Source: Syntrophomonadaceae bacterium (GTDB lineage Bacteria; Bacillota_D; Dethiobacteria; DTU022; PWGO01). Taken from it: a DNA stretch of 11,054 nt. The stretch is from contig PWGT01000010.1 of the NCBI GenBank assembly GCA_003554535.1, positions 1 through 11,054 of the forward strand, read 5' to 3'. The translations under genes were made by a program, and so were the position numbers. Below the pieces are notes generated by a model. That model was given only the letters and a program-made list of their open reading frames with translations. It did no database searches and was not told where the DNA came from. This document shows positions 1 through 11,054 of the stretch, one piece after another (positions within the stretch are counted from its first letter, which is position 1; the number at the start of each line of letters is the position of its first letter).

Positions 1-40
1 AATTAACTTATTATTTAGACTTCTTCGAGGAGGGCTTTTT

Positions 41-1564
41 TTGGGCAGTAATAATTTCCTGTACTTGTTTTTTAGGAGCATTAAAATATTTTTGGTTGTT
101 TTGTTTTTTTTGGGGATAGCTTCTATTTCTGTTAACTCAAAAGCCCAAGGCCATTACTCTAATGAAGGAGAAGGACCTGTTGAATATAAGAGCGTTCCGG
201 TTTTTTCTACAATGCCTTTCTTCATGCAAGAAATTTTAGAAGAGAGTATGGGGCGAGTGGATGAATTACTGGGTAAATTTATAGGTCAATTTTACCCTAC
301 TAACCAGGAAATGTTGCTGGGAACGCCTACCCTCGGAAACTTGATAAGCGGTCATATGCAAAGAATTACTGAACCAGCTTACTGGTCGAATTACTTTACT
401 GAAGCACTGGTTAATGGAGTTTTTGTAATTCCTAAACCGATAGATGTGGTCAAACCGGAAATAATTCTACCTACCGAGGAAATTAAAGAAGGCGACGAAA
501 GCTTAACTTTGCCCAGGCGAGAAATAGATCTCAGCGAAGTTACTTATGAATGGCAGGGAAGAGAGAAGACTATTGAGGAATTTGTAATTACCACCCCTAC
601 AGATTGCCTGGTAGTACTACATGATGGAGAACTGGTCTATGAAGATTATGCTGATGGCTGGAATCCCGATATGAGGGGTCAGCCCTGGTCCGTAACTAAA
701 TCTTTTACGTCTGCTCTGGTAGGCATTGCTTGGGAAGAGGGGAAAATTCATTCCGTCCACGATCCCATTGAGAAATATATCCCTGAATTAGAAAATACTG
801 ATTGGGAGGGTGCTACCATTGAAAATTTACTCCAAATGGAATCTGGCACCTATTGGGATGAAGATTTGCCTGTACTGGCTTTCAATTGTCAGGTGCAACA
901 GTGGACGGGGTTATTTCTTGATTATCTAACCGACAGTTTATTGGGGGCGAGCCGCAACGAATACCTCAAGTCAATGGAACGTGTTGCAGATCCAGGTGAG
1001 GAGTTTCGTTATAATAGCGGCGACACCCAGGTATTGGCCTGGCTGGTTGAATCGGTTTATGATGATTCATATGCGGAAGTAATGTCTGAAAAACTATGGA
1101 AACCGGCAGGAATGGAAGGAAATGCAAGAGTGATAGCCGATAGAGAAGGAGGGGCTATTGCTTCTCAAGGCCTGTATGCCAAACCTTATGATTTGGCTCG
1201 TTTCGGCGAAATTTACCGTAATAATGGAAAAACTCCGGAAGGCAAGCAGATTATTTCAGAGGAATGGGTAAAAAAATCAATTGATTTTACGGAAGCTTCT
1301 GATGGTGATTACGGCTATCAGTGGTGGTCAAGTGAAACTATAGAAGATCTTTTTGAGGCTTCGGGCTTTCAAGGCAATAAGGTAAGCATTTCTCCAGAAA
1401 ATAATTTAACTGCAGTTCGGCTCAGCCATCACCTGGGAGCAAATTTGCGGCCCAATGGAGATAACCCTTTTAAGTTAGACACTTATGGATTTGAAGTGGA
1501 AATGGGGGGTGACGAATGGGAGCAGGCATATGCTGCCATTGCTGAGGAGTTGGAAGCCGAGTAA
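41..1564 (+). CDS. Exported serine hydrolase, class C beta-lactamase / 6-aminohexanoate-dimer hydrolase (NylB-like) fold
   Basis: 507 residues from a TTG start; GAGGAGGG at 27-34 is an ideal Shine-Dalgarno six bases upstream and no better start is visible. Residues 14-31 form a hydrophobic signal-peptide core after Arg12/Lys15, with a plausible cleavage after S-K-A (residue 35), so the enzyme should act outside the membrane. The penicillin-recognising fold occupies about residues 185-480. The SxxK motif is S217-V-T-K220, the second motif is Y324-N-S, and an H-H-L-G stretch near residue 463 stands where the KTG/HTG box lies. Family members hydrolyse esters, amides or peptides through an acyl-serine intermediate; the substrate cannot be read here. 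About 150 residues lie between the signal peptide and the fold, longer than in NylB, where the nucleophile is near residue 112. It is first in the window, so its upstream context is missing. The fold and active site are secure, but calling it a beta-lactamase resistance enzyme would be unjustified. Confidence 0.9.
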   Translation: MGSNNFLYLFFRSIKIFLVVLFFLGIASISVNSKAQGHYSNEGEGPVEYKSVPVFSTMPFFMQEILEESMGRVDELLGKFIGQFYPTNQEMLLGTPTLGNLISGHMQRITEPAYWSNYFTEALVNGVFVIPKPIDVVKPEIILPTEEIKEGDESLTLPRREIDLSEVTYEWQGREKTIEEFVITTPTDCLVVLHDGELVYEDYADGWNPDMRGQPWSVTKSFTSALVGIAWEEGKIHSVHDPIEKYIPELENTDWEGATIENLLQMESGTYWDEDLPVLAFNCQVQQWTGLFLDYLTDSLLGASRNEYLKSMERVADPGEEFRYNSGDTQVLAWLVESVYDDSYAEVMSEKLWKPAGMEGNARVIADREGGAIASQGLYAKPYDLARFGEIYRNNGKTPEGKQIISEEWVKKSIDFTEASDGDYGYQWWSSETIEDLFEASGFQGNKVSISPENNLTAVRLSHHLGANLRPNGDNPFKLDTYGFEVEMGGDEWEQAYAAIAEELEAE

Positions 1565-1567
1565 AGA

Positions 1568-1592
1568 TCACAGAAGCCCCCTCCCTCTGTGA
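1568..1592 (+). terminator. Small hairpin with C-rich loop after the serine hydrolase gene
   Basis: The arms TCACAGA (1568-1574) and TCTGTGA (1586-1592) are perfectly complementary around an 11-base pyrimidine-rich loop, and the structure starts 4 bases after the stop codon. No strong T-run follows (only CCCTTTT around 1602-1608), so it is a weak intrinsic terminator or a 3'-end stability hairpin. The layout resembles the element after cysE (7575-7604), suggesting a dispersed intergenic repeat. Confidence 0.4.
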
Positions 1593-2144
1593 CCAATAGC
1601 TCCCTTTTGAATAGTTAGCTTTATTTTGCAATCTCCTTTAATTTATAATTTAAGTTTTTGTTGTCAGACAATTTAATTAAATACAAATATTTTTTTAAAA
1701 AATATAAAAATCAGGAAGGATTTATCTTTTCGGTAAAGAAATATATAACATACCATATAGTATAATTTGAAAAAAACATTGAAAAATTAACAGTCTCGGG
1801 CTTGCTAAAACCATCCAATAATAAACTTCGCAACATTTTTATGGAGAAACTTAGAAAAATAATCTTTATTATTATCAACATGTTCCCAGACTCTTGCCAA
1901 TAGCTCAACAGACTTGCTGCAGTAGCGACTATACAAAGAGCCATTAACAGTGAAAATATTTACCCGGCCTTCACCGGTAAGGTTATACAAATAAATAAAG
2001 GGGGGTATAGCTAAAAATTAATAATATCAGTGTTTTTAGCCTGTTTTTTTTAGTACGAAATTGAGTCAATAATATGAGCAACATCCAAACTGGAAATTTA
2101 AGGCCTAATTGGATGGTGCCCATAGTATACAAGGAGGAAAAATT
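1593..2144. other. AT-rich intergenic stretch with no supported gene
   Basis: About 550 bases separate the serine hydrolase from the carboxylase operon. The sequence is very AT-rich at 1620-1790, with long A and T runs. Two overlapping minus-strand open frames of 61 and 77 codons (between 1711 and 1990) were examined; neither has a good ribosome binding site or a recognised domain, and they could at most be decayed remnants. The right part (2010-2051) holds a dyad with a T-run, listed separately, and should also carry the promoter of the carboxylase operon. I could not identify a convincing -35/-10 pair there. Confidence 0.5.
2010..2051 (+). terminator. AT-rich dyad followed by a T8 run, upstream of the carboxylase operon
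   Basis: GCTAAAAA (2010-2017) and TTTTTAGC (2033-2040) form a perfect 8-bp inverted repeat with a 15-base loop. Three bases later there is a run of eight T (2044-2051). On the + strand this has the shape of an intrinsic terminator, but the stem is A-T rich and weak. It could instead be an operator or a leader element of the operon that begins about 95 bases downstream. The role is uncertain; the dyad itself is plainly visible. Confidence 0.35.
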
Positions 2145-3578
2145 ATGACGGGAGATAACACCCTTAAATTGGTTGATGAAACATTGCGTGATGGAACCCA
2201 AAGCCTGTGGGGAATGATGATGAGCTATCATATGATTGAACCGGTTGTCGGCGAAATCGGTGAGATTGGTTTTGATACTGTCATGCCACCGGTGCATGGT
2301 GCTTATCCCACGATTTGGGCTCGTTTCTTTAAGGAAGATCCCCGAGAAGTGCTTCGCATGGTAAGGAATAAGCTAACAAATACCAAATCTAATGTTCGCA
2401 TAATCGGCGTGGGTACAGCGACGAATCTCTCAAAACCGTTTGAAAATAAAACGGTTGCAAAGATGTGCTATCAGTATTTAAAAGAGGCTGTGCCACAGAT
2501 CAATGAGTTTGCATTGATTACTTGTACCCAGGATGAGCTTAGGAGAATATACCCGGTAATATTCCCAACGTTCCGTTCACTGGGAATAGAGCCAATACCC
2601 TATTTGGGCATCGGGCACAGTTCCCGTTTTACTGAAGAATACTACGCCTCTCAAACGAAGGAGATTGTTGAGAAATATAAGCCTAAATCTATATGTATTA
2701 AAGATGTGAATGGATTGCTGACTCCGGAACGTCTCCGGAAGATTCTCACCGCTATACAGGAGGTCGCCGACGGTACGCCTTTCGAGTTCCATGGGCATGG
2801 CATGAACGGCTTACACAGCTATAACGCTGTGGTGGCCATGCAGATGGGAGTGAGGAAAATATCCACCTGTATTCCTCCTTTGGCATATGATTCAAGCCAC
2901 CCTTCAGTATTCAATGTTATCAGTAATGCAAAGGAAATGGGTATAAGCCCCGATATGGATGTGGATGTGGAAAAGATGAAAGAGGTAAGCGAGCGTTTAA
3001 CTAAAATAGGGGAAGCTTATGGTCATCCCGTTGATAATCATCTCCTGCCCTTTGATTTAACAGACTATAAACACCAGATTCCCGGGGGCGTGATCTCCAA
3101 TACCAAAACACAACTGGCGCAATTAGGTCTTTCAGACATGATTGAGGATGTACTGGAGGAAATTCCGCGTATTTTGGAGGAGCTTGGGTACCCCCAAATG
3201 GTTACCCCATTTTCGCAGTTCATTGTGACTCAGGCTGTTCTTAATGTACACGCGGGACGCTGGGAGCAATGCCTTGACTCCATAATCGAGTTTGCTGCCG
3301 GTATGTTTGGTTATGAAGAGGCCGGGGTCCCTTATATGGATCAAAATCTCAAAGATAAGCTTTTTAGCCTTCCCCAGGCTAAGGCGATTATAGAAAGAGC
3401 TGATAATTATGACGAGTATATTAATGAAGACCTTTCGGAAGCAGAATGTATGAAAAGAGCTGGTCTATCGCCTGATGATAGCCTCGAAAGGTACGCCCTG
3501 AAAGTATGTATGGAAGGCGAAGACGAACTGGCTAATGTTACCCAAGGTGGACCTGATTTTTATAAAAAGTATCTATAG
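2145..3578 (+). CDS. Biotin-dependent carboxyltransferase subunit (pyruvate carboxylase B / oxaloacetate decarboxylase alpha-like)
   Basis: 477 residues from ATG at 2145, chosen because AAGGAGGA (2131-2138) lies at ideal distance; an upstream in-frame TTG at 2109 lacks such a site. The N-terminal TIM barrel carries the DRE-TIM signature D11-E-T-L-R15-D16-G-x-Q19-S, giving the substrate arginine and metal aspartate. K176 in ICIKDVNGLL matches the carbamylated lysine, and H206-G-H208 supplies the metal histidines. A PYC/OADA-type domain follows (about 311-370: HQIPGG..SN, then EEIPRILEELGYP and TPFSQ). It should move the carboxyl group from carboxybiotin to an acceptor, in this fold normally a 2-oxo acid such as pyruvate. 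Unlike single-chain enzymes it has no biotin domain; that is the next gene. The segment around 231-244 (TCIPPLAYDSSHPS) departs from the usual TSQP consensus, with Ser240 where pyruvate carboxylases use the proton-shuttle threonine. The acceptor is therefore open. No OadB-type sodium-pump gene is present, so carboxylation is more likely than decarboxylation. Confidence 0.85.
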   Translation: MTGDNTLKLVDETLRDGTQSLWGMMMSYHMIEPVVGEIGEIGFDTVMPPVHGAYPTIWARFFKEDPREVLRMVRNKLTNTKSNVRIIGVGTATNLSKPFENKTVAKMCYQYLKEAVPQINEFALITCTQDELRRIYPVIFPTFRSLGIEPIPYLGIGHSSRFTEEYYASQTKEIVEKYKPKSICIKDVNGLLTPERLRKILTAIQEVADGTPFEFHGHGMNGLHSYNAVVAMQMGVRKISTCIPPLAYDSSHPSVFNVISNAKEMGISPDMDVDVEKMKEVSERLTKIGEAYGHPVDNHLLPFDLTDYKHQIPGGVISNTKTQLAQLGLSDMIEDVLEEIPRILEELGYPQMVTPFSQFIVTQAVLNVHAGRWEQCLDSIIEFAAGMFGYEEAGVPYMDQNLKDKLFSLPQAKAIIERADNYDEYINEDLSEAECMKRAGLSPDDSLERYALKVCMEGEDELANVTQGGPDFYKKYL

Positions 3579-3673
3579 TAACTGCCTGAAAATGCTTCAG
3601 AGAATGCAACTCTAATCAGTTGAAAATAATTAGTGCCAAATTATAAAAAAATTGAAGAGAGGTGGAGTTAGTT

Positions 3674-3937
3674 ATGACAGCAGCAAATAAGAATGACCTT
3701 GTGCCAATTCAAGCGACGGTAACCAGTGTTTTCTATCGCAAACCCAGGCCCGGAGAACCACCTTTCGTGGAGGAAGGTGATCATATTGAAGAAGGCACTA
3801 CAGTCTGTTTGTTGGAAGTAATGAAGTGTTTTAATTCAGTCAGCGCCGGCGTCAAAGGAAAGGTGGAGCAGATTCTTGTGGAAAGTGGGGACCTGGTAGA
3901 GAAAGGAGATACATTAATGCTCATTAGGCCGGAATAA
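3674..3937 (+). CDS. Free-standing biotin carboxyl carrier protein, 87 residues
   Basis: Starts at ATG 3674 with AGGTGG at 3660-3665; a GTG at 3662 in the same frame lies inside that ribosome binding site and is less likely. Only the biotinyl domain is present. The beginning (PIQATVTSVFYRKPRPGEPPF) resembles the AccB-type 'thumb' entry, followed by V-x-x-G-D-x-I-x-x-G and the biotinylation motif E48-V-M-K51. Lys51 is the predicted biotin attachment site, in an EVMK context rather than the commoner EAMK, and C-F-N follows where AccB usually has (M/L)MN. The domain ends with G-D-x-x-x-K-G-D-T-L-M. It should shuttle carboxybiotin between the biotin carboxylase (next gene, 45 bases on) and the carboxyltransferase (95 bases upstream). 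AccB proteins normally have a long N-terminal segment, absent here. A biotin protein ligase must act on it from elsewhere in the genome. Confidence 0.87.
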   Translation: MTAANKNDLVPIQATVTSVFYRKPRPGEPPFVEEGDHIEEGTTVCLLEVMKCFNSVSAGVKGKVEQILVESGDLVEKGDTLMLIRPE

Positions 3938-3982
3938 TGATTTAGACAAATTCCTTTATGAAATTTTGAGGTGAAATAATTT

Positions 3983-5353
3983 ATGAAAAAGAGGAAAGTG
4001 CTTGTTGCCAACAGAGGTGAGATTGCCGTCCGCATTATCAAGGCTTGCCAGGATCTTGACATAGAGACCGTATTGGTTGCTTCAGAAGCTGATACGGAAA
4101 GTATGGCAGCGAAACTGGCGGATGAGGTTGTCTGTATTGGCCCTCCCCATGTTACCTTGAGTTATCTTGATTTAGCAAAAATTATTGATGCTGCTCTCCA
4201 GACCGGCGCAGATGCAATTCACCCGGGATATGGCTTCCTTGCTGAAAATCCGGAATTGCCTGCAGCTTGTGAGAAGAACGATATCGTTTTTATTGGTCCC
4301 CGTTCGGAAACGATGCAGCAATTGGGGGACAAAATAAGTGCGCGAAGTCTGGCTGAGAAAAACGATATTCCCATGACGGATGGTAGTAAAGGTCTTAGAA
4401 GTTTTAAGGATGTAGAAGCTGAAGTTCAAAAAATAGGATCTCTCCCCGTTGTATTTAAGGCGGCTGCCGGCGGTGGCGGACGGGGGATGCGTATCGTCAC
4501 TGAACAAGGCAACTTGAAAGATGCTTTCGATATAGCTTCTAATGAAGCACTGCAAGTCTTTGGTGATGCGACCTTGTTTGTAGAGCGCTATGTACAGAAT
4601 GCCCGGCATGTGGAAGTACAGGTAATCGGAGATAATTTCGGGAATTTAATTCATTTAGGACAAAGAGACTGTTCCGCGCAGAGGCGTTACCAGAAAATAA
4701 TCGAAGAAGCTCCTCCGCCCAATCTTCCCGATGATTTAAGGAATAAAATGCTGGATGCGGCCGTAGAGCTTACTTCAAGTGTTGGTTATAATAATGCGGG
4801 CACGGTGGAGTTCTTAGTTGATAAAGATCGTAATGAATTTTATTTTATGGAAGTTAACTCTCGTATTCAAGTTGAACATCCCGTCACCGAGGAGATAACG
4901 GGTGTGGACTTAGTGAAGGAGCAGATTCAGGTTGCCTTTGGCGCCCCTCTCTCATTGAATCAGGAGGACATAGACTTCCAGGGCCATGCTATCGAATGCC
5001 GCATCACTGCCGAAGATGCCAGAGATAGTTTTATGCCATCGCCTGGTGACATAACATACTTTGCTTTGCCCGGTGGCAAGAATGTCCGAATAGACACCCA
5101 CTGCCATCAGGGATGCACAATCAGTCCATATTATGATCCGTTATTAGCCAAGCTGATTACTACAGGTAATACCCGCGCAGATGCATTAGCGAATATGGAA
5201 ACTGCACTGGCGGAATTTAAAATCGAGGGAATAGAAACTAATATTTCCTTCCTCCAATTCTTGGTTAAGCAGCTTGAGTTTGCGGCAGGAGATATACAAG
5301 TTAATTGGATAGAACATACGATTTTACCTAATTTTGTAGAATTACTAAAATAA
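3983..5353 (+). CDS. accC: Biotin carboxylase subunit (AccC family)
   Basis: 456 residues from ATG 3983, with TGAGGTGA at 3967-3974 as ribosome binding site. It makes carboxybiotin on the carrier protein from ATP and bicarbonate. The full ATP-grasp biotin carboxylase is visible: N-terminal VLVANRGEIAVRII (6-19), G-Y-G-F-L-A-E-N-P (82-90), K117 and K159 for ATP, the glycine-rich loop AAGGGGRGMR (161-170), RRYQK with K238, and E290-V-N292-S-R294-I-Q-V-E298-H-P-V-T-E, which match E. coli AccC E288, N290, R292 and E296 with an offset of two. R340 in ECR matches E. coli R338. All catalytic residues are therefore present and the length is that of AccC. The gene order carboxyltransferase, carrier, biotin carboxylase suggests a dedicated complex rather than fatty-acid acetyl-CoA carboxylase. 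No accA/accD-type carboxyltransferase lies in the window, but sharing this subunit with acetyl-CoA carboxylase cannot be excluded. Confidence 0.93.
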   Translation: MKKRKVLVANRGEIAVRIIKACQDLDIETVLVASEADTESMAAKLADEVVCIGPPHVTLSYLDLAKIIDAALQTGADAIHPGYGFLAENPELPAACEKNDIVFIGPRSETMQQLGDKISARSLAEKNDIPMTDGSKGLRSFKDVEAEVQKIGSLPVVFKAAAGGGGRGMRIVTEQGNLKDAFDIASNEALQVFGDATLFVERYVQNARHVEVQVIGDNFGNLIHLGQRDCSAQRRYQKIIEEAPPPNLPDDLRNKMLDAAVELTSSVGYNNAGTVEFLVDKDRNEFYFMEVNSRIQVEHPVTEEITGVDLVKEQIQVAFGAPLSLNQEDIDFQGHAIECRITAEDARDSFMPSPGDITYFALPGGKNVRIDTHCHQGCTISPYYDPLLAKLITTGNTRADALANMETALAEFKIEGIETNISFLQFLVKQLEFAAGDIQVNWIEHTILPNFVELLK

Positions 5354-5357
5354 GATA

Positions 5358-5444
5358 ATGCAAAGTGAAGTTATAGGTGAAAACGAGGAAGGTTTACTGG
5401 GGGTCAAATGGGCAGCTGCCGCAGTACACATGTTTCAGAAATAA
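5358..5444 (+). CDS. Possible 28-codon micro-ORF after the biotin carboxylase gene
   Basis: An ATG only 4 bases after the biotin carboxylase stop opens a 28-codon frame ending in TAA at 5442-5444. The product is acidic at the front (E4, E8, E10, E11) and then helical and alanine-rich (G-L-L-G-V-K-W-A-A-A-A-V-H-M-F). This loosely recalls the short acidic-plus-alanine segments (E-x-x-A-x-I-A-A-A-x-A-x-Y) seen in small subunits of biotin-dependent decarboxylases and carboxylases. No Shine-Dalgarno is visible, so translation would depend on coupling to the upstream stop codon. The position in the operon, base composition and clean stop make it worth recording, but it is short enough to be chance. 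Confidence 0.3.
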   Translation: MQSEVIGENEEGLLGVKWAAAAVHMFQK

Positions 5445-5508
5445 AATAATATTTGAGTTAAAATATTAACTAACTGACTCAAGAGTAGCTTGATAGGTGG
5501 TGGAGAGT

Positions 5509-6468
5509 TTGAAAAATGTAGCAGTTACTGGGGCGGGAGGGTTTTTGGGCAGAAAAATTATTGAAAGGCTCCTGTCCCACCCAGAAGTTAATTCATTATT
5601 GGCTATTGATGTCAAGCCTTTACCCCAAGACTTCCAATCAGGTAAGTTAACTTTTTACCAGCTTGATATTCGAGATAAACAATTGGCAGAACTTTTTGAT
5701 CAATACGAAGTGGATACAGTGTTTCATCTGGCGTTTGTGGTTAACCCCATTCGGAACCTTAAAGAGATGGAGTCTATAAATGTAGAAGGAAGTAAAAATG
5801 TGCTGAATGCAGTTGTTTCCCAAAGTATTAACCACTTGCTTGTATCTTCTTCCACTTCTGCATTTGGGGCATTCCCCGATCACCCCACTTGGTTAACAGA
5901 AGATACACCGGTTAGGAAACATAACCGTTACATGTATGCCCGGAACAAATATGAAGTAGAAAAACTTTTGGAAGCATTTGTCCGGGAAAATCCCCATATA
6001 AAGACTTCAATTATTAGGCCCTGCATAATTTGCGGGCCCCAGTTGGATAATTATGTATCCCGGATGCTTGTAAGTTGGCCCTTTTTAATACAGATTGGCA
6101 AGGGACGTCCTTATATGCAGTTTGTGCATGAAGAAGATGTGGTAGATATGTTCATGATGATATTTGAAAATGAATTTACGGGTATTTATCATTGCGCCGG
6201 TGAGGGAATTATTTCTACTGAGGAAATAGCAAAGCTTGCCGGAATAAAAATACTTCCTTTGCCGCCCTGGGTAGCTTACCCTTTGACCAATATGTTGTAT
6301 CTGTTACGCTTTCCAGGTGTAGAGGCTCGGGCAGGGATGCTGGATTTTATCCGTTATCGTTGGACTGCTTCAGATGAAAAAACAAGGGATAAATTAGGAT
6401 TTAAACCTCGTTATAGCAGCGAGCAGGTGGTGAAAATTTTAATCCACTCAAAGAAGAGCAAGGAATAA
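5509..6468 (+). CDS. Extended short-chain dehydrogenase/reductase, NAD-dependent epimerase/dehydratase family
   Basis: Start assigned to TTG 5509, because AGGTGGTGGAG (5495-5505) is the ribosome binding site and the in-frame GTG codons at 5497 and 5500 lie inside it; this gives 319 residues. The Rossmann nucleotide motif T7-G-A-G-G-F-L-G14 comes at once, and Asp34 after the second strand (LLAIDVK) favours NAD(H). The active site shows the S-S-S-T stretch at 113-116 and Y143-A-R-N-K147 (YxxxK). N-V-E-G-S-x-N-V-L and I-I-R-P-x-x-I-x-G-P are typical of the UDP-glucose 4-epimerase-like extended branch. The C-terminal half binds the substrate and is not diagnostic. It lies 155 bases after the biotin carboxylase gene with no convincing terminator between (only an AT hairpin, AGTTAA/TTAACT, at 5456-5471), so it is probably on the carboxylase transcript. 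Whether it acts on a sugar nucleotide or on a metabolite of the carboxylase pathway cannot be told. Confidence 0.85.
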   Translation: MKNVAVTGAGGFLGRKIIERLLSHPEVNSLLAIDVKPLPQDFQSGKLTFYQLDIRDKQLAELFDQYEVDTVFHLAFVVNPIRNLKEMESINVEGSKNVLNAVVSQSINHLLVSSSTSAFGAFPDHPTWLTEDTPVRKHNRYMYARNKYEVEKLLEAFVRENPHIKTSIIRPCIICGPQLDNYVSRMLVSWPFLIQIGKGRPYMQFVHEEDVVDMFMMIFENEFTGIYHCAGEGIISTEEIAKLAGIKILPLPPWVAYPLTNMLYLLRFPGVEARAGMLDFIRYRWTASDEKTRDKLGFKPRYSSEQVVKILIHSKKSKE

Positions 6469-6472
6469 ATGC

Positions 6473-6500
6473 TTTACAAAGCCTGTGATTATAGTAAAAT
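6473..6500 (+). promoter_or_regulatory. Likely SigA-type promoter for the serine acetyltransferase gene
   Basis: TTTACA (6473-6478) and TAAAAT (6495-6500) each match the -35 and -10 consensus at five of six bases and are separated by 16 bases. They begin 5 bases after the stop of the upstream epimerase gene. Transcription would start near 6507, leaving a leader of about 68 bases, too short for a T-box. This suggests that the acetyltransferase is transcribed separately from the carboxylase operon. Confidence 0.55.
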
Positions 6501-6574
6501 TTATATAGGAATACTTATGTTTGAAATAAGTTTTCTGGATAAGTTATTATGTTTTGCCATTTGGAGGGGTGTTT

Positions 6575-7552
6575 GTGAGTAAAAGCAAGAAAAATAATAA
6601 CGCAGAAAATTCTCAGCCTAATTCCTGCTTGAATGAAGAGTTGGTTGCCGAGTACAGGGAAAAATTACCGTCTCTTGTGGGCAATATAATTAGTAGCTAT
6701 GAAAAGAAATCACTTACCAGCCATGTGGATTATGAACCCATACCTTCGCAGGAATTAGCAATTGAGATCATTAACTATTTTTTTAAAATATTATATCCCG
6801 GCTATTTCAATTCAGAAAAACTTGATCCGGCCAATTTACAGTTTTATGTAGGTAATTATGTTACGCGGCTTTATGATTTGCTAGCTGAGCAAATTTCCTG
6901 TTGTATAAGACATGATTGTTTGCGCTACGAAATGAGTTGCCAGGAGTGTATGGAAAAAGGGTATGATATTTCTTTACAAGTGTTGAATAGAGTTCCTTAT
7001 TTACGGGAATTACTGGCTTCCGATGTGCAGGCTTCTTATGAAGGAGATCCTGCGGCCAAAAGCTATGATGAAATTATTTTTAGTTATCCCGGGATATTTG
7101 CCATTACCGTCTACCGGGTAGCTCATGAGCTTTATAAGTTCGATGTACCGTTGCTACCCCGGATTATGACCGAGTATGCTCACAGTATCACCGGGATTGA
7201 CATTCACCCGGGGGCTCAAATAGAAGAACGTTTTGTTATAGACCATGGCACCGGGGTGGTTATTGGGGAAACAACTCATATTGGAAGAGATGTTCGCATT
7301 TACCAGGGGGTTACCCTGGGAGCTCTTTCTTTGCCTAAAGATGCCGGCGAAAAGTACCGCTACAAAAAACGGCATCCTGATATTGAAGAAGGAGTAATAA
7401 TATATGCCGGCGCTACTATTTTAGGAGGCGAGACCACTATCGGAGCCCGTTCAGTAATTGGCGGTAATGTTTGGCTTACTGAGTCTGTTCCTTCGGATAC
7501 GCATGTGCTTATCAAAGACCCCCAACTTGTTTACAAGAATAACATGAAGTAA
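6575..7552 (+). CDS. cysE: Serine O-acetyltransferase (CysE/EpsC type)
   Basis: 325 residues from GTG 6575, preceded by GGAGGGG (6563-6569); the in-frame ATG-less extension upstream to 6554 runs through the ribosome binding site. It makes O-acetylserine from serine and acetyl-CoA, the committed step of cysteine synthesis, in the cytoplasm. The C-terminal left-handed beta-helix has the CysE signature D209-I-H-P-G-A, then I-D223-H224-G-T-G-V-V-I-G-E-T, matching the catalytic Asp/His pair (E. coli D143/H158). Next come Q-G-V-T-L-G-A and, after a charged loop, R266-H-P with the CoA-site arginine, then hexapeptide repeats to about residue 305. The roughly 200-residue N-terminal helical part is long, as in the EpsC-like branch. 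It contains five clustered cysteines (C109, C110, C115, C122, C125). The tail ends N-N-M-K, not in the isoleucine that docks CysE into cysteine synthase, so that complex is not expected. No cysK is in the window. Confidence 0.93.
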   Translation: MSKSKKNNNAENSQPNSCLNEELVAEYREKLPSLVGNIISSYEKKSLTSHVDYEPIPSQELAIEIINYFFKILYPGYFNSEKLDPANLQFYVGNYVTRLYDLLAEQISCCIRHDCLRYEMSCQECMEKGYDISLQVLNRVPYLRELLASDVQASYEGDPAAKSYDEIIFSYPGIFAITVYRVAHELYKFDVPLLPRIMTEYAHSITGIDIHPGAQIEERFVIDHGTGVVIGETTHIGRDVRIYQGVTLGALSLPKDAGEKYRYKKRHPDIEEGVIIYAGATILGGETTIGARSVIGGNVWLTESVPSDTHVLIKDPQLVYKNNMK

Positions 7553-7574
7553 CCACTCTTAGCCCTTTCCTAAT

Positions 7575-7651
7575 GTGACAAAATTGCCCCGTCCCCACCG
7601 TCACTTCTTTGTCCCTTCCCCCTCAGGGGGAAGCCGGGATGGGGGTGTTTT
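7575..7651 (+). terminator. GC-rich composite hairpin element after cysE
   Basis: Three nested or neighbouring inverted repeats are visible. GTGAC (7575-7579) pairs with GTCAC (7600-7604) around a C-rich loop. CCCCGTCCC (7587-7595) can pair with GGGATGGGG (7636-7644), nine base pairs with one G-U. TTCCCCC (7616-7622) pairs with GGGGGAA (7626-7632) around a TCA loop. T4 (7648-7651) follows. The structure could end the cysE transcript. Its composition is far more GC-rich than the surrounding AT-rich spacer, and it looks like one of the dispersed intergenic palindromes common in Clostridia; that comparison is from memory. Confidence 0.5.
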
Positions 7652-7654
7652 CCC

Positions 7655-7682
7655 TTCACATTCCTCATTGCTATGATATAAT
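7655..7682 (+). promoter_or_regulatory. Strong extended -10 promoter for the 5'-nucleotidase gene
   Basis: TTCACA (7655-7660, five of six -35 bases) and a perfect TATAAT (7677-7682) are 16 bases apart. TG at 7674-7675 adds an extended -10 (TGaTATAAT). Transcription would begin near 7689, giving a 67-base AT-rich leader with no obvious structure. This is the best promoter match in the window and makes the 5'-nucleotidase an independent unit. Confidence 0.75.
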
Positions 7683-7755
7683 AGCGAATAAAATCTAGAT
7701 TAACTAAAAGAAACTATTTTTACCAAAATAAACTCTTTTTCAAGGAGAAAAACTT

Positions 7756-9783
7756 ATGGAACAACCCAAAAATTATTTTTCCGTGACAATTATTATTTAT
7801 ACAATGTTGATTTCTTTTTTTATCTTAGGATTTCTAACTAAACCAGTAATGGCGGAAGAAGATGTGTCAAGGGAGATAGATTTCACCATCCTTCACACCA
7901 ATGATGAGCATTCTGCAATTATGCCGGCCCCGCTCGTGGATTACTTTCCAGAAGGAGACGATCCCACTCGTGGTGGGTTTGCCCGTATGGCAACAGCGAT
8001 TGAAAATCTTAAAGAGCAAAAAGAACAGCAGGAAGAACCAGTACTCCTTTTTAATGCAGGCGATTTTATCGGGGGCGGGGCATTTGGTTGGATGGCGCCC
8101 ATGGCAAACAATCCGGATCCTGAACTTGCCATAATGCAAGAGATGGGCTATGACGCGGTGACTATCGGAAACCACGAATATGATTATGGCCCCGACATTC
8201 TGGCTGATTATTTGATTGAAGCAGGTTACCCGGAAGCCCACGCGGATACAAAAGTAATAGCATCAAATACAGAAGCTCCGCCAGGACATCCTTTGCATGA
8301 CAACGATCTTTATCGCGGGCACGGAATTTTTGAATTGGAAGATAAACTTAAAGTAGGTGTCTTTGGATTAATTGGTAACCAGGCCTTGCTGGTCTCTGCA
8401 GATACAGGGGAGCTGGAATTTCCTGATCAGCACGAAGTTGCCCGGAATTCCATCGAGGAGCTTGAAGAGCAAGGCGCAGATGTTATTGTAGCTCTTACCC
8501 ACTCTGGAATAGAAGAGGATCGGGAATTAGCCCAAAATGTAGACGGAATTGATGTCATAGTTGGCGGCCACTGTCACACTGCCCTGGATGCACCTATTAA
8601 AGAAGATGATACTCTAATTGTGCAGGCCGGCTCCCATGTGGAATATTTAGGCTGTTTGGAGTTGTCTTATAACCTGGAGACTGAACAAATTTCAGTACGC
8701 AACGATGAAAACCAGCAGCCGTTTTTAGTGCCTGTGGATGCTGATTTTTCGCCACAAGAGAATATTGAGGCTTATATAGATGAATACCTTGCAGAATTAA
8801 ACGAGATTGTGAGTGAACTTACTGACGGTGATTACCAGGATATTCATGAAATAGTGGCTTATTCTGATTTCAAACTTGAAAACGGCGGAAAGCCACAAGA
8901 AACACCAGCCGGGAACTTCATTACGGATGCCATACGCTTTGGGGCAGAAGAAGTTATGGGCAAAAATGTAGATGTGGTTTTACAGACTAATGGTGGCATT
9001 AGACAGGGGATCTATCCGGGAGAAGAGCATTCGCCGGGGGAAATATCTTTTTACGAGATTACGGAAGCGGTGGGGATTGGCTATGGAGAAGATGGTTACC
9101 CCGGTTACCCGCTGGTTTCTTTTTATCTTACCGGTTCAGAGTTGTTATGGGTCCTGGAAGCTTCTGCTTTCCTGGGGGAAGGAGTTTCATATACTTCTTT
9201 TTTACAAGCTTCCGGGGTAAGGTACAGTTATAACCCGGACAATGCTGTGATGTTCTCAATCCCTTTCTTAGATGTTCCCGTTCCCAGCCTTTCTGTAATA
9301 GAGGCAGAAGTTTATCAGGGAGATGGCAAGCAACCTGCAGGCAATAACGGAAATTTTGAAACCCTGGAACGAGATGATACGCTGTATCATGTAGTTACTG
9401 GCACCTCACTTTTTTCATATATTCAAATGGCTGCGGATATACTTCCCCAATTTATGGAACCCAAAGATGAGCAAGGCGAACCTCTGGATCTGGACAATCC
9501 AGAAAAGTATTTTGTTCACCGCAATGACGGACGTGAATTGAAATTGTGGGAAACCGTGGTTATGCATGCTGAAAATCAGCCTGCCGGGGAAGATGAAATG
9601 CCCACTATTTCTGACTATTATGAGGAGGCTTCCTTCAGGATTATTCAGGAGGAGAGTTTTCCCAATGTGGTTTGGTTTTTGGCTATTTTAATTGCAATAA
9701 TAGCTGGAGTGATTTTCCTGGTGCGATGGCGTCGCTTGCGTAAAAAGGAAAAAATGCGCAGTCAATACAAATATTTGGTTTAA
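7756..9783 (+). CDS. Exported, membrane-anchored 5'-nucleotidase / metallophosphoesterase (UshA/YfkN-like)
   Basis: 675 residues from ATG 7756, with AAGGAG at 7742-7747. Residues 8-30 form a signal-peptide core with likely cleavage after V-M-A (33). The calcineurin-like metallophosphatase domain (about 41-280) has all two-metal motifs: H47-T-N-D50-E-H52, G102-D103, G138-N139-H140-E141, H249 and G271-H272-C-H274. The C-terminal 5'-nucleotidase domain (about 365-600) shows T-P-A-G-N387-F-I-T-D-A and T-N412-G-G-I-R416. Such enzymes release phosphate and nucleosides from extracellular nucleotides or related phosphoesters; here the substrate could be nucleoside monophosphates, 2',3'-cyclic nucleotides or UDP-sugars. 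One hydrophobic helix (about 638-656) followed by an Arg/Lys-rich tail anchors it with the catalytic domains outside. There is no LPxTG motif. The helix-plus-basic-tail end resembles a sortase anchor without its signal, so simple membrane anchoring is the best reading. It is a single-gene unit with its own promoter. Confidence 0.93.
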   Translation: MEQPKNYFSVTIIIYTMLISFFILGFLTKPVMAEEDVSREIDFTILHTNDEHSAIMPAPLVDYFPEGDDPTRGGFARMATAIENLKEQKEQQEEPVLLFNAGDFIGGGAFGWMAPMANNPDPELAIMQEMGYDAVTIGNHEYDYGPDILADYLIEAGYPEAHADTKVIASNTEAPPGHPLHDNDLYRGHGIFELEDKLKVGVFGLIGNQALLVSADTGELEFPDQHEVARNSIEELEEQGADVIVALTHSGIEEDRELAQNVDGIDVIVGGHCHTALDAPIKEDDTLIVQAGSHVEYLGCLELSYNLETEQISVRNDENQQPFLVPVDADFSPQENIEAYIDEYLAELNEIVSELTDGDYQDIHEIVAYSDFKLENGGKPQETPAGNFITDAIRFGAEEVMGKNVDVVLQTNGGIRQGIYPGEEHSPGEISFYEITEAVGIGYGEDGYPGYPLVSFYLTGSELLWVLEASAFLGEGVSYTSFLQASGVRYSYNPDNAVMFSIPFLDVPVPSLSVIEAEVYQGDGKQPAGNNGNFETLERDDTLYHVVTGTSLFSYIQMAADILPQFMEPKDEQGEPLDLDNPEKYFVHRNDGRELKLWETVVMHAENQPAGEDEMPTISDYYEEASFRIIQEESFPNVVWFLAILIAIIAGVIFLVRWRRLRKKEKMRSQYKYLV

Positions 9784-9908
9784 AAAGATATCACTAAAGT
9801 ATAACTAAATATGTATAAATTTGAGGATTTATCTACTTTTACCATCAAAAATAAGGACTTTTTTTATTCAAAATAGGGATTTTCCCAATTTCATTTTATG
9901 CTGTTTTG
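9784..9908. other. AT-rich spacer after the 5'-nucleotidase gene
   Basis: This stretch is part of the gene-free interval up to 10145. It is AT-rich, with A and T runs and only weak dyads (for example GGG at 9877-9879 against CCC at 9885-9887, followed by scattered T). I see no clear intrinsic terminator and no open frame with a ribosome binding site. Confidence 0.4.
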
Positions 9909-9938
9909 GTCTATTATTATATTAACACAATAATAGAC
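9909..9938. promoter_or_regulatory. Perfect 10-bp inverted repeat at the probable promoter of the riboswitch transcript
   Basis: GTCTATTATT (9909-9918) and AATAATAGAC (9929-9938) are exact reverse complements separated by 10 bases, so the half-site centres lie 20 bases apart, about two helical turns. The right arm contains AATAAT (9929-9934), a five-of-six -10 match. TTGGTC at 9906-9911, 17 bases upstream, is a poor but possible -35. TATATT (9918-9923) is an alternative -10. The dyad thus overlaps the likely promoter and looks like an operator for a dimeric repressor. There is no T-run after it, which argues against a terminator. Confidence 0.5.
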
Positions 9939-9992
9939 GCTGCAAACCTTGGGATTCAATCAAGTAATTAAGCTTACATTAGTGGAAGTATT

Positions 9993-10102
9993 AAAAAAAT
10001 CTGACCGACAAAGGCAAACCTTTCGAAAGAAAGGGACGCAAAGCCATGGGTCTAAGGCTCTATCAGGGCTATGACCGCCAGGTTGCCGAAGCGGATTTTT
10101 TT
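9993..10102 (+). ncRNA. Cyclic di-GMP-I riboswitch (GEMM-I)
   Basis: The conserved core is directly readable. GGCAAACC (10013-10020) leads into a hairpin CCTTTC-GAAA-GAAAGG (10019-10034) with the GNRA loop. GGGACGCAAAGCC (10033-10045) follows, then a second arm with GGGTCTAAGG (10048-10057) and short helices CATGG/CTATG (10045-10049/10069-10073) and GCTC/GGGC. The closing segment is CCAGGTTGCCGAA (10078-10090). An outer P1 helix of 11 bp pairs A7-TCTG (9993-10003) with CGGA-T7 (10092-10102), with one G-U. The base before CAAACC is G (10014), the position that contacts the ligand; an A there is typical of the cGAMP-sensing variant, so c-di-GMP is the expected ligand. It sits 43 bases before the start codon of a secreted enzyme and should control that gene. 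Confidence 0.93.
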
Positions 10103-10117
10103 GGGTTTCGGGAAGTC

Positions 10118-10139
10118 GGTCCCTCATCCGGGAGGGATC
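10118..10139 (+). promoter_or_regulatory. Hairpin burying the Shine-Dalgarno sequence of the riboswitch-controlled gene
   Basis: GGTCCCTC (10118-10125) can pair with GAGGGATC (10132-10139), eight pairs including one G-U, with a 6-base loop. The right arm holds the GGAGGG ribosome binding site (10131-10136) of the gene starting at 10146. The left arm can alternatively pair with GGGA at 10110-10113, and CCGAA (10086-10090) at the riboswitch end can pair with TTCGG (10107-10111), so competing folds exist. This suggests control of translation initiation. The direction (c-di-GMP on or off) cannot be read from the sequence. Confidence 0.55.
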
Positions 10140-10145
10140 ATTAAA

Positions 10146-11054
10146 ATGAAAAGGAATGTCTGTTTTAAAGTTTTATCTGTTTTTCTTCTCTTTTTAGTTG
10201 TGTGGGTTCCCCTTTTGCCTGTTTTAAATGGAACTGATGCCAGTGCTTCCCAAGCTGATTATGGAGACGTTAATGGAGACGGCGAAGTAACTGTCAGGGA
10301 TGCGATCCTGGTATTGAAGCACGTGAGTGGATTGCTGAACCTGGAAGAAAAGTATGATAATGGGGCTTACGAGCGGGCTAATGTGTTTACCGGCACCGAT
10401 TTCGTGGGTGTGGGCGATGCTGTATTTATTTTGCGGTATGTAGTAGGGTTGCAGGATGAACTTCCCAGCGATTCTTCTGACTATGAAGAAGGCTTGGGTG
10501 GGGATGTGTATTATGAATGGGGCGAACAAAGTTCTTATTCTTTCACCGTGAAGGTAAATGTCTATAATGAGGGGAGCGATACTGCTAACAATGTTCAGGT
10601 TAACCTGCCCATGCTGGAAAATGATTCTCCATACCAGGATACCAATTTAATTGATACTAATTATCCCAACACCTCATCCAGCGGCAGAATAAGTACTTTC
10701 AATCTGGATGATTTATCACCCGGGCAATCCAAAACATTAGAAGTAAACTATAATATTGATGTGCGACCGGTGTCAGTTAACAGTGATGCAAATGGTACTA
10801 TAGAAGATGCCAAAAATATATTTGACCGTTATGCCGGAAGTGGAAATTGCCACGAACTTGCCACCCAGTTTGTAGATCACTGTCAAGATGAAGGCATTGA
10901 GGCACGAGTAGTCACTGGTTTTGCCCGCCCCCACAGAGGAGATATGACTTCCGGATGCCTTTCCGGTTGCCGTCACAGCTGGGCAGAATTTTACGTAGAC
11001 TATTTAGGCTGGGTACCTGTAGATTTAACTTTCGAATATTTTGCAGATTTTCCC
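10146..11054 (+). CDS. Secreted transglutaminase-like protein with dockerin-type repeats (partial, runs off the window)
   Basis: An open frame of 303 codons from ATG 10146 to the last base, with no stop; the ribosome binding site is GGAGGG at 10131-10136. Residues 8-27 are a signal-peptide core with cleavage likely after A-S-A (34). A dockerin-like repeat follows with a complete calcium loop D41-x-N43-x-D45-G-E47-x-x-x-x-D52 and helix AILVLKHVSGL. A second repeat (about 79-102) keeps D91 and helix AVFILRYVVGL but has V80, T82 and T84 at the first three ligand positions. Residues 120-207 look like a beta-sandwich of the DUF11/CARDB kind (TVKVNVYNEGSDTANNVQV, then LSPGQSKTLEV). From about 218 a transglutaminase-like domain begins: G-N-C235-H-E-L-A-T-Q-F, then C-R-H277-S-W-A-E-F-Y and V-P-V-D293-L-T-F, the expected Cys-His-Asp triad. 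Such domains act as cysteine proteases, transamidases or peptide-modifying enzymes. The c-di-GMP riboswitch points to a role in the switch between attached and motile life, by inference. The C-terminal part is unknown. Confidence 0.85.
   Translation, partial: MKRNVCFKVLSVFLLFLVVWVPLLPVLNGTDASASQADYGDVNGDGEVTVRDAILVLKHVSGLLNLEEKYDNGAYERANVFTGTDFVGVGDAVFILRYVVGLQDELPSDSSDYEEGLGGDVYYEWGEQSSYSFTVKVNVYNEGSDTANNVQVNLPMLENDSPYQDTNLIDTNYPNTSSSGRISTFNLDDLSPGQSKTLEVNYNIDVRPVSVNSDANGTIEDAKNIFDRYAGSGNCHELATQFVDHCQDEGIEARVVTGFARPHRGDMTSGCLSGCRHSWAEFYVDYLGWVPVDLTFEYFADFP

Follow-up and report, generated by a model that had tools for sequence, protein, structure and literature searches.

A c-di-GMP-I riboswitch, predicted to be an OFF switch, upstream of a gene for a transglutaminase-like enzyme in uncultured Bacillota

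INTRODUCTION

What does an RNA that senses cyclic di-GMP (c-di-GMP) control, and in which direction, when it stands in front of a gene for a seemingly exported enzyme? The question is raised by a stretch of 11,054 nucleotides from a Syntrophomonadaceae bacterium (GenBank assembly GCA_003554535.1, contig PWGT01000010.1, positions 1 to 11,054; hereafter "the window"), at the end of which a c-di-GMP-I (GEMM-I) aptamer is followed by a gene for a transglutaminase-like protein. The identities of the RNA, of the gene, and of its domain are certain. Based on the computational analysis reported here, we lean toward a c-di-GMP-I OFF switch that governs a transglutaminase-like enzyme, secreted or held at the surface, which would act on surface or matrix proteins at low c-di-GMP.

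RESULTS

The covariance model of c-di-GMP-I riboswitches (RF01051) matched the window over its whole length with 91.2 bits against a gathering score of 35 (E 1.3e-17), confirming the textbook GEMM-I aptamer claimed in the original prediction, and its membership in this class predicts that the RNA senses c-di-GMP. No second Rfam match was found in the window at E up to 0.1, and the leader holds a single aptamer. The spacing of 43 bases first given for aptamer and gene holds if measured from the end of helix P1 (10102), whereas 55 nt separate the end of the Rfam model from the ATG at 10146 (Table 1). The open reading frame (ORF) that starts there runs for 303 codons without a stop to the end of the window, and a hydrophobic N-terminal segment suggests that its product is exported.

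A Pfam search placed the Transglut_core domain (PF01841) at residues 212-293, with 53.6 bits against a cut-off of 23 (E 3.2e-14). The Cys235-His277-Asp293 triad sits where the original prediction had put it and is invariant across an alignment of 46 sequences. A transglutaminase fold is likewise borne out by Foldseek, whose sole matches at E <=0.001, at low TM-scores of 0.23-0.27, were the periplasmic domain of TgpA (6g4h, 6g49) and 3isr. TgpA is presumably a membrane protein that lacks the N-terminal arrangement of the window protein. A sequence search of solved structures returned weak matches only, the sole transglutaminase among them being 6g49 (E 0.057); NCBIfam assigned no family to the window protein, and a viral-contig scan with it found no relative. 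The sequence would suit a protease or a transferase alike and does not separate crosslinking from cleavage.

A protein search returned 160 relatives, of which 120 were listed; two of these are named Dethiobacteria. The motif GxC...RHSWxE is present in 119 of the 120 relatives listed, the exception being P0001, a 99% relative of the window protein with 277 amino acids, the last of which are unlike those of the family. P0001 lacks the His and Asp motifs because its reading frame departs within the core, which may reflect polymorphism, decay, or an assembly error. One could read this as a sign that the window gene is itself decaying; we consider this very improbable, given that the window copy keeps its frame past every residue of the triad to the window's end and that the source of P0001 is a short contig (3408 bases) that may hold an assembly error.

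The pairing of RNA and enzyme is conserved. A scan of genome contigs yielded 24 close loci, all from metagenome-assembled genomes (15 Syntrophomonadaceae, 7 Bacillota, 1 Firmicutes, and 1 Clostridia), and c-di-GMP-I or c-di-GMP-I-GGC aptamers lie directly upstream in 20 of them; the remaining 4, like a second gene copy in L018, are truncated within the gene. With seven further close loci that also have upstream aptamers (L069, L077, and L088-L092), one or more aptamers precede the gene in 27/27 testable close relatives, all uncultured Bacillota, which argues that the pairing is not due to chance. At Rfam gathering scores, 16 of the 27 leaders carry two aptamers and 11 carry one, the upstream sequence of L014 being too short to exclude a second. 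Within the class of one relative, 52 of 97 genomes matched the family at 1e-20, 31 of them closely (<1e-50) and 21 distantly. Distant loci were fetched for 19 of these 21 genomes, and in 15/19 an aptamer precedes the likely start by 12-108 nt; at L112 the distance is 230 nt, with the start masked, and the 4 loci without an aptamer are cut near a contig end (L103 and L110), have a short frame (L099), or are a fragment (L113). In a sample of the phylum, matches at 1e-15 came from 14 of 398 genomes; an aptamer is present, at any distance, in 5 of the 7 loci scanned, one of which (L121) comes from the class itself, and none was found in the scanned loci L122 and L123. Since as many as 92/97 genomes of the class have c-di-GMP-I RNAs, a control was run on other transglutaminase-core genes: 7 genomes contained 4 further such genes, 3 of them in genomes with listed aptamers, none of which lay on the contigs of these genes. 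The search of other genomes suggested by the original prediction thus found GEMM-I RNAs before transglutaminase-domain genes well beyond the window.

What the same prediction called a different wiring of the same logic is, as a pairing of RNA and enzyme, not new. Table 2 of a 2025 survey (PMC12452182) lists COG1305 ("yebA", transglutaminase-like) as enriched for tandem c-di-GMP-I riboswitches in Bacillota (94% double, 6% triple, P 1.08E-34), so that the pairing was already known; a text search of the main text, supplements being outside it, found no mention beyond this row. The tandem systems of the survey share the RNA class, the broad enzyme family, and the phylum with ours, as well as the two aptamers seen in 16/27 relatives; the window differs by its one aptamer and its dockerin, and the subfamily of the survey's genes is unstated in the text seen. 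A literature search that left out most subscription journals and preprints found c-di-GMP riboswitches joined with transglutaminases only in that survey and in work of the LapG type; PMC11651100 was rejected as a prior report, its transglutaminase being a mouse gene, and a text search of PMC6200980 gave no match to the subject. What is new here is the OFF platform, the inverse matrix switch, and the dockerin variant, the OFF platform being the best supported of the three.

Two arrangements in relatives deserve separate mention. L018 has tandem transglutaminase genes (258-896 and 1478-2665), the first cut by the contig end, with aptamers between them. In five genomes (G055:C1, G058:C145, G071:C327, G054:C197, and G056:C84), another c-di-GMP-I aptamer is located on the same strand ∼1.3-1.5 kb beyond the distant transglutaminase match, and the next gene may thus be controlled by c-di-GMP too.

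The direction of control was addressed by comparing 27 leaders, that of the window and those of 26 relatives (L069 was left out). Four helices, P1, H3, H4, and H5, recur across all of them, H4, traced by eye, reusing the 3' strand of P1. The letters of P1 in the window differ from those of its relatives yet stay paired, and H3 is lengthened in many relatives by AAAG with CUUU. In the window and in the 26 relatives, P1 and H3 cross, so that only one of them can form at a time as an ordinary helix; the RNA therefore combines a position in the 5' untranslated region with an expression platform of alternative helices, as expected of a riboswitch. At least 4 T are found within 8 nt after H5 in 23/27 leaders. 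Paired changes in H3 include A-U pairs of the extension replaced by G-C in five leaders and GAU/AUC in place of GAC/GUC in L092; covariation amounts to 6 cells, compared with 1.4 on average in shuffles and with lower values in slid controls, and P1 and H5 also vary in a paired manner. In 20/27 leaders, H3 extends to a conserved aptamer G, which we take to be the ligand-contacting G20 (Vc2 numbering). When P1 was forced in an equilibrium model, the probability of H3 fell from 0.64 to 0.00 and that of a completed H5 base rose from 0.51 to 0.96. In the OFF switch Cd1, the bound aptamer can form together with the terminator, and both compete with the antiterminator (PMC9262584). An OFF switch is predicted here on the same grounds: H3 uses an aptamer strand and crosses P1, and the hairpin can form alongside the bound aptamer. 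An aptamer with the same GACCGAC/GUCGGUC platform also precedes an exported glucosaminidase-domain protein in L030 (323-1477, - strand; the domain scan covered L030) and a similar protein in L028.

Table 1. Coordinates of the features at the downstream end of the window
Feature	Position	Strand	Basis
P1, 5' strand, pairs with 10092-10102	9993..10003	+	Sequence; helix in 27 leaders, pair changes on both sides
P1, 3' strand	10092..10102	+	Sequence complementarity
c-di-GMP-I (GEMM-I) riboswitch aptamer	10003..10090	+	RF01051
GACCGAC, aptamer strand, 5' half of the proposed antiterminator/anti-sequestor helix H3	10003..10009	+	Complementary to 10115-10121
GUCGGUC, 3' half of H3	10115..10121	+	Minimum-energy fold, conserved helix
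Hairpin H4 (10086-10092 with 10105-10111), alternative to P1	10086..10111	+	Minimum-energy fold
Hairpin H5 (10118-10125 with 10132-10139), buries ribosome-binding site	10118..10139	+	Recurs in 27 leaders
Ribosome-binding site GGGAGG	10130..10135	+	Sequence just before ATG
Transglutaminase-like protein, predicted exported, 303 residues seen, C-terminus beyond the window	10146..11054	+	ORF; PF01841
Dockerin-like region, about residues 39-103	10260..10454	+	PF00404; resembles dockerins of relatives
Beta-sandwich domain, residues 121-211	10506..10778	+	Weak DUF11 match, 21.3 bits vs cut-off 24.6
Transglutaminase-like core	10779..11024	+	Triad C235 (10848), H277 (10974), D293 (11022)

A dockerin-like region near the N terminus sets the window protein apart. 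The PF00404 (Dockerin_1) match at residues 39-61 scored 22.5 bits, just below the cut-off of 22.9; the first calcium loop, DVNGDGEVTVRD, is intact, and the second is, by eye, degenerate, with most ligand residues absent. In a phmmer comparison with a five-sequence set, both halves of the region aligned with dockerin-like proteins encoded in L162. The motif DxNGDG occurs, among the 120 relatives listed, in the window protein and P0001 only, so that the dockerin is not a trait of the family; the relatives looked at have a hydrophobic N terminus and a low-complexity spacer instead. Cohesins scored over the cut-off in 25 of the 97 genomes from this class of relatives. A same-strand gene run follows a c-di-GMP-I aptamer in two of the genomes, G002 and G005 (G002:C59, L161; G005:C93, L162), encoding an unknown protein of 513-515 amino acids, an exported protein of 606-610 amino acids, a PPTG-type anchor, and two cohesin proteins, and the run of L162 continues with two proteins bearing dockerin-like N termini. 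The same gene order is found in G030 and G043 (L164 and L165, the latter cut).

Dockerins also appear elsewhere behind these RNAs: L048 encodes, downstream of a c-di-GMP-I aptamer, a matrixin-type metalloprotease with a C-terminal dockerin (2170-4134, - strand), and sequences similar to the N terminus of this protease follow aptamers in L038 and L054. A search of the literature that left out most subscription journals, preprints, and supplements returned nothing joining a c-di-GMP riboswitch with a dockerin, and nothing related by title on cohesins in Dethiobacteria. A study of dockerin proteins of the fiber-degrading rumen bacterium Ruminococcus flavefaciens (PMC2930009) contains the words dockerin and transglutaminase, which makes it likely that the two domains are combined there; we know of no c-di-GMP link of its dockerin proteins.

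Some enzyme genes lie next to genes for matrix proteins. The cluster of L007 comprises genes for a matrix-like protein, an aptamer followed by a BsaA/TasA-like protein, a DUF7507 protein, two aptamers followed by the enzyme, and a fusion of a response-regulator receiver with a SipW-like signal peptidase. The order is the same in L017, except that a further receiver-SipW gene and, by eye, a transposase-like gene are inserted before the enzyme's aptamer, and L114 shows an aptamer, a BsaA-like gene, a further exported protein, an aptamer, and the enzyme gene. The matrix protein of L007 scored 59.5 against 60 bits for TIGR04090 and 19.1 against 19 for the SipW signal TIGR04088. A receiver-SipW gene was found nearby in 7/24 loci, many of them short, and an aptamer in 7 of the 19 matrix-gene loci scanned (a twentieth source, L114, overlaps L133 and is not in the 19). 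In three of nine leaders of BsaA/TasA-like genes, a helix joins an aptamer strand with the ribosome-binding region (L052, 8 bp; L061, 11 bp; L140, 9 bp), with model probabilities of 0.76, 0.95, and 0.05, respectively; in the other six, the best helix has 4-8 bp and a probability of 0.00-0.01. These three leaders are possible ON switches, judged by their pairing; an ON switch for all matrix genes was only partly borne out, six of the nine leaders having no strong helix and L140 standing at 0.05.

Receiver-SipW fusions are encoded at 8833-11121 in L007 and at 3388-5394 and 8881-10617 in L017, and related genes stand directly behind c-di-GMP-I aptamers in L002, L003, and L004. In L035 and L042, an actin-like gene follows such an aptamer (ALP_N was found in L035, the one scanned).

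Elsewhere in the window, positions 2109-5353 hold a carboxylase-type set: a carboxyltransferase (oxaloacetate decarboxylase/2-oxoglutarate carboxylase-like), a biotinyl carrier, and a biotin carboxylase. The closest relative of the carboxyltransferase (2148-3575) is 97% identical and lies on an ENA contig; a second stands at 72%, and the rest do not exceed 64%. Smithella and Syntrophales are among the few source names given for these relatives, and the 97 genomes of the class searched above gave no match to the carboxyltransferase at 1e-100, a negative that carries no weight in the absence of a positive control. A perfect 10-bp inverted repeat, GTCTATTATT/AATAATAGAC (9909-9938), which separates the aptamer from the nucleotidase-like gene upstream of it, suggests a candidate operator or weak terminator.

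DISCUSSION

In the mechanism that we propose, c-di-GMP binding would let P1 close the aptamer and the downstream hairpin form, and this hairpin, in which the ribosome-binding site lies and which most relatives end with a U-tract, would leave little protein to be made. Without ligand, GACCGAC (up to GACCGACAAAG in relatives) would pair with GUCGGUC, P1 would be lost, the base of the hairpin would open, and the enzyme would be made. Since the antiterminator H3 pairs with the binding-site strand of the aptamer and competes with P1, ligand should favor the terminator/ribosome-site hairpin, and an OFF switch would mean that the enzyme is made at low c-di-GMP, as in the logic of PPEP-1 of Clostridioides difficile and of LapG. 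The enzyme would then act on cell-surface or matrix proteins, aiding remodeling or detachment. The window's dockerin would anchor it to a surface protein that carries cohesin; the dockerin variant is new, and this functional reading of it is weak.

Several observations weigh against this proposal. The pair types of H3 are not above chance (5 versus 5.0 in shuffles), its pairs with a double change number 2 against 0.9 (28/500 shuffles), its outer pairs, those of the extension, fail in 4-10 of 27 leaders, and shuffles overstate significance for related sequences. The free H3 probability is below 0.5 in 5/27 leaders (0.44 in L012 and L091; 0.00-0.03 in L013, L014, and L092), and the loss of H3 under forced P1 holds by construction, because the program allows no pseudoknots. 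The mean unpaired probability of the ribosome-binding site is 0.09 in both states; with the site paired throughout, the equilibrium model predicts no translational control. Because the window has no U-tract after H5, the transcriptional argument from its relatives is not directly transferable to it, and its own mechanism may be translational, a less certain case than theirs. A matrix-protein gene stands beside the enzyme gene in three loci only (L007, L017, and L114), many others being short contigs, and the window ends inside the enzyme gene, the downstream gene lying beyond it.

Transglutaminase-fold proteins have many activities, and the enzyme could be a cell-wall or general extracellular hydrolase, serving peptidoglycan or protein turnover or nutrient use, merely tuned by c-di-GMP and unrelated to attachment. 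The platform shared with the glucosaminidase gene of L030 and the similar gene of L028 points that way, as does the lack of a matrix gene at most loci, many of them short. We nevertheless find such a hydrolase somewhat unlikely, since the genes behind c-di-GMP-I aptamers in five genomes include those for matrix proteins, cohesins, matrixin proteases, and one protein weakly resembling type II secretion systems. The direction of control could also be the opposite one, with the enzyme made at high c-di-GMP and serving to crosslink or mature the matrix as a biofilm forms. Activating tandem aptamers are known in Bacillus, the modeled exposure of the ribosome site does not change between states, the enzyme gene neighbors SipW-type matrix genes in three loci, and pili and adhesins of C. 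difficile are switched ON by c-di-GMP (PMC11477304). An ON switch seems unlikely to us all the same, the crossing of P1 by an antiterminator built on an aptamer strand, together with a hairpin that fits the bound aptamer, being the layout of the OFF switch Cd1 (PMC9262584).

The comparison with LapG bears on a further alternative, a protease that releases one dedicated adhesin as a direct counterpart of LapG. In the LapD-LapG-LapA system of Pseudomonas, LapG acts at low c-di-GMP (PMC3032545), and it shares with the window protein a transglutaminase-like Cys-His-Asp enzyme, a tie between c-di-GMP and attachment, and the activity at low c-di-GMP that is predicted here. LapG is periplasmic, inhibited through the protein LapD (PMC3032545), and of another Pfam family, whereas control of synthesis by RNA is predicted for our enzyme. 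LapG's own family (DUF920, bacterial transglutaminase-like cysteine proteinase) was absent among the five families that matched the window protein at E up to 1, and an identification as LapG by family was rejected. The "same logic" put forward in the original prediction finds support in the repression by c-di-GMP that the platform predicts. No tested neighbor is constant beside the enzyme gene (tblastn), and a direct counterpart of LapG appears improbable. The OFF switch that we favor has a further parallel in C. difficile, where PPEP-1 (CD2830), under a class I switch, and its adhesins, under class II, are inversely controlled by c-di-GMP (PMC11477304): in both cases a secreted enzyme is predicted to be repressed, and surface proteins are possibly induced, via riboswitches. 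PPEP-1 is a metalloprotease, whereas here the enzyme has a cysteine transglutaminase fold and both switches are of the class I type.

Should both directions prove right, the enzyme and the matrix protein would be inversely controlled, as are PPEP-1 and its adhesins (PMC11477304). One cluster would then carry c-di-GMP-I switches of opposite sense, ON for a SipW-dependent matrix protein and OFF for an enzyme that dismantles or releases the matrix, an RNA-only detachment circuit convergent with LapD-LapG and PPEP-1, with the enzyme docked, in the lineage of the window, by dockerin and cohesin on a c-di-GMP-controlled surface. We hold this extended circuit to be rather unlikely, and the inverse matrix switch is weak as a functional reading.

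Together, our results describe a concrete RNA wiring of c-di-GMP to a transglutaminase-fold enzyme, predicted to be extracellular, in a mostly uncultured group of Bacillota, with a defined antiterminator, and they suggest that c-di-GMP may also govern surface display by cohesin and dockerin. Should the enzyme indeed be switched OFF by c-di-GMP and act on the matrix, the logic of detachment would have been reached in at least three ways: by protein control in LapD-LapG, by the metalloprotease PPEP-1, and by an RNA-controlled enzyme.
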